Assembly (NCBI GenBank): GCA_016235555.1
Contig: JACRKC010000081.1
Coordinates: forward strand, 1 to 64,000
Source of the DNA: Verrucomicrobiota bacterium
GTDB taxonomy: Bacteria > Verrucomicrobiota > Verrucomicrobiia > Opitutales > Opitutaceae
Length of the DNA stretch: 64,000 bases
Direction: 5' to 3'
The translations under genes and the position numbers were made by a program. This document shows positions 1-37,880 of the stretch, piece by piece (the stretch's first letter is position 1; every line of letters starts with the position of its first letter). The notes beneath the pieces were generated by a model. It saw only the letters and a list, made by a program, of their open reading frames with translations, searched no databases and was not told where the DNA came from.

Positions 1-83
1 ACGGCGGGGTTCGGCGACCCCGCCCTACAAATCTCTTCGCTCCGAAAGGCTGCTTTCGCTGGGCGTGTGGCCTGATTTCCGGA

Positions 84-200
84 GGTGGAGCGCGTTGACC
101 ACAACGCGCTTTTGGCGGGAGGGGCTTTCCGCCCCGTGTCGTGGCGGGGTAACCCCGCTCCCACCTTCAAACCTGCCGGTTGGGGGAAACGCGCTCCACC
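84..200. repeat. Palindromic repeat, family D copy 1
   Basis: An imperfect inverted repeat whose ends read GGTGGAGCGCGTTG and its complement, with inner palindromes around ggggctttccgcccc. A near-identical copy lies at 37591-37707 and a shorter relative lies inside a coding gene at 18591-18653. Bases 1-83 hold another short palindromic fragment and no gene. It abuts the 3' end of the S9 peptidase gene and may act as an mRNA end structure. Confidence 0.85.
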
Positions 201-204
201 ACGA

Positions 205-4553: not shown

Positions 4554-4643
4554 TGTTTAATGTCGTCTGCTCGCTCACGCTCGTTGCAACGCGCCCCCGA
4601 GTGACACGGCGCGTCGGCAGGTTCTCAACGTGCTCCACCTCGT

Positions 4644-18268: not shown

Positions 18269-19036
18269 TCAACGAAACGCGTTCCACTCCGGCGTCGAGT
18301 AGTGCTCCACGAGGGCGCTGAGTTCTTCCTCGGCGAGATCCGGCCACGGCGTCGGCTGGGCGGGGCCGGCGAGGGCGCTGGAAAGCTGCGCGACAAAGTC
18401 GTCGTTGAACCGGTCCCAATCGACCGTGGTGCCTGCGCCGGCGGCCGGACGCCAGATCGAGCCTTGGAAGAGGAGGCCGTGCTTGTTGCGCTTCTGAGCG
18501 GCGCCGGCGATTTTCTCGGAGGTGCGTTCGTGGATGACGTCGTAGATCTCGGCGCGCTGGAAGCACACGCCGGCGGGGCCGGCGGCAGGGGGAGCGCCCT
18601 GACCCCAAGGCGCTGGTTCGGCCGAAAGCGTGTTGGGGTCAACGTGCTCCACCTCCTTTTGTTTCGTGACGGCGGGCACGCCTTGCGCGCGCAACGCGGC
18701 GGCGAGGGCTTCGTGGATTTCACGGTAGCTTTGCGTGGCGGGGCGCTCTTCGAGCGGGTGGCCGCGCGGGATGACGAGGGCGTAGGTCCAGTCGTCGCGA
18801 TGATCGACGAGGCCGCCGCCGGTGGGACGGCGGCAGGTGTCGAAACGCCCGCCCGCCGGGAGCTGCGACTGGATGAAGGAGAATTTCTGCGAGTAGCCGA
18901 AGGTGAACGCCGGCCGGTGCCAGCCGTAGTGGCGGAAGCGCGGCGTGACGCGCGGGTAGCGCTGCAAGAGCAGAAAATCGGTCGCCATGTTTTCGGCGGC
19001 GCCACCGGAGCGAGTCGGGAGAATTTCCAGATGCAT
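18269..19036 (-). CDS. Lipoate-protein ligase A-like protein
   Basis: A 255-residue member of the biotin/lipoyl protein ligase superfamily, likely moving lipoyl or octanoyl groups. Visible family features are the N-terminal NMATDFLLL segment, the RRPTGGGLVDH loop (usually RRxSGGGAVxH) and a KIAGAAQKRNKHGLLFQGSI segment containing the adenylate-site lysine. Residues about 128-149 are not family-like and coincide with a palindromic element in frame (18591-18653). Start MHLEILPTRSGG was chosen because upstream codons fall in a dispersed repeat. Confidence 0.75.
   Translation of the reverse strand: MHLEILPTRSGGAAENMATDFLLLQRYPRVTPRFRHYGWHRPAFTFGYSQKFSFIQSQLPAGGRFDTCRRPTGGGLVDHRDDWTYALVIPRGHPLEERPATQSYREIHEALAAALRAQGVPAVTKQKEVEHVDPNTLSAEPAPWGQGAPPAAGPAGVCFQRAEIYDVIHERTSEKIAGAAQKRNKHGLLFQGSIWRPAAGAGTTVDWDRFNDDFVAQLSSALAGPAQPTPWPDLAEEELSALVEHYSTPEWNAFR
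18591..18653. repeat. Family D-like palindrome inside a coding gene
   Basis: Read on the minus strand it starts ggtggagcacgttgacccc and ends ccttggggtcagggcgctcc, the same wording as the intergenic family D copies. It is 63 bases (21 codons) and keeps the ligase frame open, adding a peptide around EHVDPNTLSAEPAPWGQGA. Confidence 0.75.
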
Positions 19037-29681: not shown

Positions 29682-30833
29682 ATGCTGGCCACCGCAAACG
29701 CACCCGTCCCGCTCTACGATCTCACACGGGCGGAGCTGTTGGGACTGTTCGGCCGCTGGGGCTTCGCGCCGGTGCACGGCGAACGGCTGTGGAACTATCT
29801 TTATTTGCAGCTGGCCGGCGCGTTCTCCGCCGACGCGCTGCCGGAGTTGCCGGCGAAAGTCCGCACGCGCCTCGCCGCCGAGGCGACGCTCGGTGTGCTG
29901 CCGACTGCGCTCGAGACCGACTCGAGCGACGGCTTCACCCGCAAATACCTCCTCGCCCTCGCCGATCGCGCGCGCATCGAGACCGTGCTCATGCGGTTCA
30001 CCGGCCGCGTGACCGCGTGCCTCAGCACGCAGGTCGGCTGCGCGATGGGCTGCGTGTTCTGCGCCACCGGTCAGATGGGCTACACGCGGCACCTCACCGC
30101 CGGCGAAATCGTCGCGCAAGCCGTGCACGTCGCGCGCGCGCTGCGGCAGGGTGGTGGCGGCCGGGGTGACGAGATTTACCCGCCTCTGGCGGCGCCGAAG
30201 GCGACCAGGGCCGGCCTCCTCACGTCGGCCGCTACGCCCCGCCTCCGCAACATCGTCCTCATGGGCATGGGCGAGCCGCTGCACAATTACGACGCCGTGA
30301 TGCACGCGATCGACATCCTGCGCGATCCCAACGGGCTCGCGCTCGGCGCGGAGCGCATCACGCTCAGCACGGTGGGCGTCGTGCCCGGCATCCTGCGGCT
30401 CGCCCGGGAAAAACGCCCGCTGCATCTCGCCGTCTCGCTGCACGCCGCCACCCAGGAAGAGCGCGCGGCCCTCGTGCCCGTCGCGAAAAAATGGCCGCTC
30501 GACGAACTCATGGCCGCGTGCCGCACCTACAGCGAGACGACCGGCCGGCGCATCTTCTACGAGTGGACGCTGATCGACGGGAAAAACGACTCGCCCGATC
30601 ATGCGCGCGCCGTGGGGCGGTTGCTGCGCGGGCTGCCGGCGCAGGTAAACCTGATCCCGCTCAACCCCACGACCGGCTACGAGGGCGCGCCGACGCACTC
30701 GGCGGCGGCGCGGCAGTTTCAACACATCCTCGCGCAAGAGTTCTCCTTGCCGAGCACGGTGCGGCAGCGTCGCGGCATCGATATCGCGGCGGGATGCGGC
30801 CAGCTCGCGGTGGTTGAACCGCGCCGCGCGTGA
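29682..30833 (+). CDS. rlmN: 23S rRNA/tRNA adenine-C2 methyltransferase RlmN, with in-frame repeat insertion
   Basis: Radical-SAM enzyme methylating C2 of A2503 in 23S rRNA and A37 in tRNAs. The 383-residue product carries the [4Fe-4S] motif CAMGCVFC, the SAM region VLMGMGEPLHNY, the conserved LSTVGVVPGI and LHAATQEER, and a late Cys in GCGQLA. Between the helix AGEIVAQAVHVARAL and LRNIVLMGMGEP there are about 28 extra residues (PPLAAPKATRAGLLTSAATP and flanks) encoded by a palindromic element. All catalytic parts are intact, so the enzyme may still function. Confidence 0.93.
   Translation: MLATANAPVPLYDLTRAELLGLFGRWGFAPVHGERLWNYLYLQLAGAFSADALPELPAKVRTRLAAEATLGVLPTALETDSSDGFTRKYLLALADRARIETVLMRFTGRVTACLSTQVGCAMGCVFCATGQMGYTRHLTAGEIVAQAVHVARALRQGGGGRGDEIYPPLAAPKATRAGLLTSAATPRLRNIVLMGMGEPLHNYDAVMHAIDILRDPNGLALGAERITLSTVGVVPGILRLAREKRPLHLAVSLHAATQEERAALVPVAKKWPLDELMAACRTYSETTGRRIFYEWTLIDGKNDSPDHARAVGRLLRGLPAQVNLIPLNPTTGYEGAPTHSAAARQFQHILAQEFSLPSTVRQRRGIDIAAGCGQLAVVEPRRA
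30175..30236. repeat. Palindromic element inside rlmN
   Basis: The first part (tttacccgcctctggcggc and on to gcgaccagggc) recurs at 50752-50789. The second part ccggcctcctcacgtcggcc followed by gctac is family H, intergenic at 31175, 43749 and 55891. The composite keeps the rlmN frame. Confidence 0.8.
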
Positions 30834-37571: not shown

Positions 37572-37590
37572 GCTGGGACATTGCCGTCGA

Positions 37591-37707
37591 GGTGGAGCGC
37601 GTTGCCCCCAACGCGCGTTTGGTGGGAGGGGCTTTACGCCCCGACGAGTCGCGGGGTCAACCCGCTCCCACCCTCAAACCAGCGCGTTGGGGGCAACGCG
37701 CTCCACC
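37591..37707. repeat. Palindromic repeat family D, copy 2
   Basis: Starts GGTGGAGCGCGTTGCCCCC and ends in the complement, close in length and wording to copy 1 at 84-200. It follows trpB2 by 19 bases. The rest of 37708-37880 shows nothing recognisable. Confidence 0.85.
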
Positions 37708-37880
37708 GCTGCACGGCGCGGTCACGACCGGGCACGAGTTCGACTGCACCATTCCGGTTGGGCGGGGCGTCGCGGGGCCGGCCGGACGGTGGCCGGCACT
37801 GGTCCGATCACTGGACTGATGCTGGACTTTGGCGGCGCCGCGCTTGACTCATCACTAGACTCACGCTTGTCTTACTAGCG

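Follow-up and report, generated by a model that had tools for sequence, protein, structure and literature searches.

A 63-base stretch inside a lipoate–protein ligase gene is, with high confidence, a degenerate inverted-REP dimer (REPIN-like and non-autonomous) that entered a flexible linker of the enzyme and would be translated there as a tolerated loop. The stretch lies in 64,000 nucleotides of contiguous DNA, referred to here as the window. According to the best reading of the homologous sequences, the same linker would have gained REP-like inserts independently at least seven times in related bacteria.

Identity of the inserted element

The insert, its two arms, the host gene and two further copies of the repeat family, designated D, are located in the window as follows.

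18272..19036, minus strand: lipoate–protein ligase A/B-like gene carrying the insert, 255 aa (Pfam PF21948, E 2.4e-12; AF2 model compared with 2c7i)
18591..18653, minus strand: in-frame REP dimer, short form, 63 bases or about 21 codons, without counterpart in the closest insert-free homologues
18626..18655, minus strand: left REP unit of the insert, GAGGTGGAGCACGTTGACCCCAACACGCTT (41.1 bits, weight matrix)
18586..18615, plus strand: right, inverted REP unit of the insert, CAGGGGGAGCGCCCTGACCCCAAGGCGCTG (25.7 bits, weight matrix)
82..202, plus strand: intergenic long-form copy of the D family
37589..37709, plus strand: intergenic long-form copy of the D family with a nested inner REP pair, GTGGGAGGGGCTTTACGCCCCGAC

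Read on the minus strand from 18653 to 18591, the insert is GGTGGAGCACGTTGACCCCAACACGCTTTCGGCCGAACCAGCGCCTTGGGGTCAGGGCGCTCC (GGTGGAGCACGTTGACCCCAACACGC...GCGCCTTGGGGTCAGGGCGCTCC), and it is read in frame as approximately residues 128-149 of the protein (255 aa). The arms were scored with a weight matrix for the D unit, which was built from 38 exact units, all of them starting with GGTGG because they were chosen on that string. GGTGG is kept in the left in-gene unit, and the right arm is degenerate, with GGGGG. At a threshold of at least 20 bits, the matrix found 63 places in 1.2 Mb of the genome and none in the same DNA reversed. An in-frame repeat insert of 63 bases at this position was the central claim of the original prediction, and it was confirmed by the scores of both arms together with the reversed control. 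A chance palindrome, or a loop built by ordinary codon indels, would agree with the varying length and content of the linker among homologues. However, arms of 41 and 26 bits were obtained where the reversed 1.2-Mb control reached 20 bits nowhere, and the net gain in length is 21 contiguous codons. This explanation was refuted by the score controls, and its probability is virtually nil.

The D unit, GAGGTGGAGCGCGTTGnCCnCAACGCGCTT, can form a stem-loop and bears a terminal GTGG tag, a known variant of GTAG. Its stem, GCGCGTTG-nnnn-CAACGCGC, lies inside a 30-bp unit, which is within the 20-40 bp size range of REPs. The exact 14-base D end, GGTGGAGCRCGTTG, occurs 323 times in the genome of the window (G000, 8.0 Mb), compared with 2 occurrences for the reversed control. 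Inverted (+-) pairs make up 83 of 120 sampled D elements. The D elements show the traits of GTAG-type REP dimers, namely, the tag, the stem-loop, high copy number, mainly intergenic placement, and inverted pairing. A lone exact GGTGGAGCACGTTG was also observed on the minus strand of the window at 4626-4639, with no full unit or partner above threshold. In a related genome (G026 C66:14965-15418), 11 D ends of the same orientation are spaced at 44 bases and form a tandem REP array.

The long form of the element is 117 bp in length, and a second REP pair, GTGGGAGGGGCTTTACGCCCCGAC, is nested inside it. The ligase gene holds the short form, which lacks this central pair and is also present elsewhere in the genome. 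It had been proposed that the insert begins and ends with the same wording as the intergenic repeats at 84-200 and 37591-37707, both of which are 117-bp long forms. The agreement at the start is near exact, but the end is more degenerate (GGGCGCTCCCCC compared with AACGCGCTCCACC).

Host gene and predicted structure

The host protein is a member of the LplA/B family, with the catalytic domain, the predicted fold and the conserved Lys all present. Its match to PF21948 (E 2.4e-12) is above the cut-off, and RRxTGGG and K175 are invariant, so the lipoate-binding and Lys motifs are retained. The AF2 model was aligned with Thermoplasma acidophilum LplA (2c7i) over 218 residues, with a Z of 24.6 and an rmsd of 2.4. 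The mean pLDDT of the model is 90; across the insert region (residues 131-160) it is 48-64, with values below 50 at residues 137-140 and 144-148. According to this prediction, the insert is a disordered loop on the protein surface, and the LplA fold and the catalytic motifs remain intact. Inactivation of the ligase gene by the insertion, with the gene as an early pseudogene, is highly unlikely, since the frame is open, coding scores are alike on both sides of the insert (L 0.29, R 0.35), the lipoate-binding and Lys motifs are kept, and an LplA fold is predicted with confidence.

L032, L058, and L059 are the closest homologues without an insert; their proteins have 234-235 aa compared with 255 aa, and the length differs in the insert linker alone. 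Comparison with close homologues had been suggested in the original prediction, and it bore the claim out: the 21 codons are absent from all three. The insertion boundaries and any target-site duplication are unreadable at this linker because the linker is variable.

Repeated gain at the same linker

REP-like palindromes were found in the ligase linker of 7 of 96 homologues, and the other 89 are without them. Four of the carriers have a D-family insert, namely, the window, L034 (whose genome is a single contig of 5,957,605 bases), L205, and L221. Other REP families occupy the linker in L227, L246, and L050, where the inserted family has 54, 11, and 136 copies, respectively, in the carrier's own genome; none of these families was found in G000. 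On a gene tree built with the linker columns left out, parsimony required seven changes for all seven carriers and four for the D-family carriers. At least seven independent gains of REP-like inserts are the best reading of these sequences, and the distribution shows the linker to be a permissive landing site for inserts.

Alternatively, a single ancestral REP insertion, followed by many losses, could explain why position and frame coincide in four genera. The window, L034, L205, and L221 do share the family, the frame (VERVxPNxL), and nearly the same site. However, every carrier is nested among insert-free relatives; L221 neighbours L042 and L205 neighbours L219, both without an insert; the changes number four for the D-family carriers and seven for all; and the three other carriers have unrelated resident families. 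Constraining the four D carriers to one clade was rejected with a p-AU of 0.0002, for a group that was defined after the data were seen and in a test that bears on the gene tree, not on the loop. A single insertion is already disfavoured by this evidence, and it is considered improbable.

Natural variation in this linker affects both its length and its content, and some homologues carry other REP families there and some non-repeat residues. An equivalent loop of different origin, which the original prediction had named as evidence against itself, was seen in part in these homologues, and the repeat origin of the insert in the window stands. The linker insert of L193, a stretch seen 6-10 times at no more than 2 mismatches in three genomes, was kept outside the seven counted. 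In L221, part of the REP-coded segment of the linker is present twice (GKAAWGQAAPPQSG and GKAAWGQAAAPQSG); in each arm, compensating bases have changed the stem.

Selection could also drive the recurrence if the peptide encoded by the REP, or the hairpin in its mRNA, had been co-opted, for example as an interaction loop or as a signal for translation or stability. Such a role would fit the repeated gains in one linker, as well as the strong mRNA hairpin: a 70-nt RNA over the insert folds at -40.3 kcal/mol, with a z of -4.4 against shuffles. On the other hand, 89 of the 96 homologues do without an insert, the inserts of different families give unrelated peptides, and the inserted segment is predicted to be disordered. 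Co-option is regarded as distinctly improbable.

Under the preferred explanation, a REPIN-like non-autonomous mobile element would have landed in a flexible linker encoded by the lipoate ligase gene. As the element is in frame and free of stops, it would encode a 21-residue disordered loop that is tolerated, and it would have been retained for that reason. The insertion was probably near neutral. That many insertions lie in linkers would then reflect the removal of damaging insertions by selection, not a function of the peptide.

Candidate mobilizers

Ten Y1_Tnp loci were identified in G000, which is an assembly of 140 contigs. The inner REP of the D long form, GTGGGAGGGGCTTTATGCCCCGAC, stands on both sides of the Y1_Tnp gene L126, a layout termed REPtron. 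The loci L125 and L130 are flanked by GTAGGTCGGGCTTTACGCCCGAC. Together with L129, these loci represent REPtrons of three or more families within a single genome, with GTGG- or GTAG-tagged repeats at their flanks. A D unit closely flanking a Y1_Tnp locus was not found in the flanks of the ten loci, the nearest being approximately 1.1 kb away (L128). As this search gave no transposase with the D unit on either side, the mobilizer of the element is inferred; it would be a RAYT-type (Y1/HuH) transposase.

Coding insertions elsewhere in the genome

The sampled D elements comprise 86 intergenic copies, 15 at gene edges, and 19 inside predicted genes. As the sample consisted of 1.2 Mb plus 60 targeted stretches picked around exact or near matches, the share of 19 in 120 is an estimate rather than an unbiased genome-wide rate; the genes were called by a simple codon-usage caller, and some of the 19 score weakly as coding. 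Coding insertion had been predicted to be recurrent in this genome from the ligase and rlmN cases, and the in-gene copies uphold this; the RlmN palindrome is a different one. Two of the three phases are used by the in-gene D copies, and none uses the phase in which the common unit's TGA would be read. Hosts of D inserts identified with Pfam include MnmA, a DEAD-box (DeaD/DbpA-type) helicase, an amino-acid permease, and a protein kinase, as well as a YjeF-type dehydratase, a histidine kinase, a glycosyltransferase, and a sugar-kinase-like protein. The rlmN gene lies in the window.

29682..30830, plus strand: rlmN with a linker insert at residues 156-188 (NCBIfam RlmN)

This insert holds a different high-copy palindrome, with the tract GGCCTCCTCACGTCGGCCGCTACG and 12-mers present at 12-20 copies in 1.2 Mb, and it is missing from short homologues (349-356 aa compared with 383 aa). 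In alignments of MnmA, RlmN, and YjeF, the inserts sit in linkers of variable length. Moreover, the MnmA of another genus (L278) has a D-type peptide in the same linker where this genome has one. It is tentatively proposed, at somewhat under an even chance, that REP insertions are a main generator of protein loop length in Opitutaceae, with a few permissive linkers (lipoate ligase, MnmA, and RlmN) invaded repeatedly by the resident REP family. If so, loop differences between Opitutaceae species would consist in large part of decayed mobile DNA.

Two further sites were observed in G000. On the contig of the window and just past it, a second D dimer lies in a predicted 788-aa gene (L077:12156-12235; C48:76156-76235), and a Pfam search of this protein gave no match. 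On C132, neighbouring genes for an amino-acid permease (L018:1007-3064) and a DeaD-type RNA helicase (L091:1315-3108) each contain an in-frame D dimer roughly 120 bp long.

In this lineage, 'extragenic' palindromes regularly turn into coding sequence. This enzyme loop occurs without an insert and with mobile-element peptides of several sequence families, each gained independently, and so offers a clean natural experiment. Comparison of these loops allows intragenic REPs to be tested as neutral passengers or as contributors to protein evolution.

Comparison with known systems

In-frame REP dimers inside genes were described by Di Nocera et al. 2013 (PMC3733652), with Opitutus terrae as the richest GTAG case. 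In that study, dimers or groups that encode 20-30 residues accounted for more than half of the inserts, a GTGG tag was present in most O. terrae GTAG-20 elements, and the authors proposed that such inserts are tolerated by flexible linkers. The O. terrae dimers, from the same phylum, resemble the D family in their tagged palindromic units, in-frame dimers and GTGG tag; they belong to another genome, and the likeness is in the described traits. The study also reported that recB of Xanthomonas campestris and X. oryzae was hit at about the same site, but it reports no multi-genus hotspot like the ligase linker.

REPINs mobilised by RAYT transposases (PMC3116915) share with the present case high-copy inverted REP pairs, a long hairpin, and Y1_Tnp loci in the genome. 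One Y1_Tnp locus here has the nested REP of the long form at its flanks. In contrast to them, the D unit was found without an adjoining transposase, and many D copies are intragenic. Rickettsia palindromic elements are in-frame palindromes in conserved genes that are probably still functional (cited in PMC3733652), and the intragenic repeats of R. conorii listed there are of the CGTC type. Both these elements and the D family lie in frame in conserved genes, but their sequences are unrelated, with a D tag of GTGG compared with CGTC. Membership of the D element in the CGTC/RPE group was rejected on this tag; the element works in the manner of an RPE without being one. The original prediction had left the element unidentified as a REP dimer. 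As a phenomenon, this kind of event is already known; the addition made here is an unusually clear convergent hotspot, a linker that several REP families have entered at least seven times.
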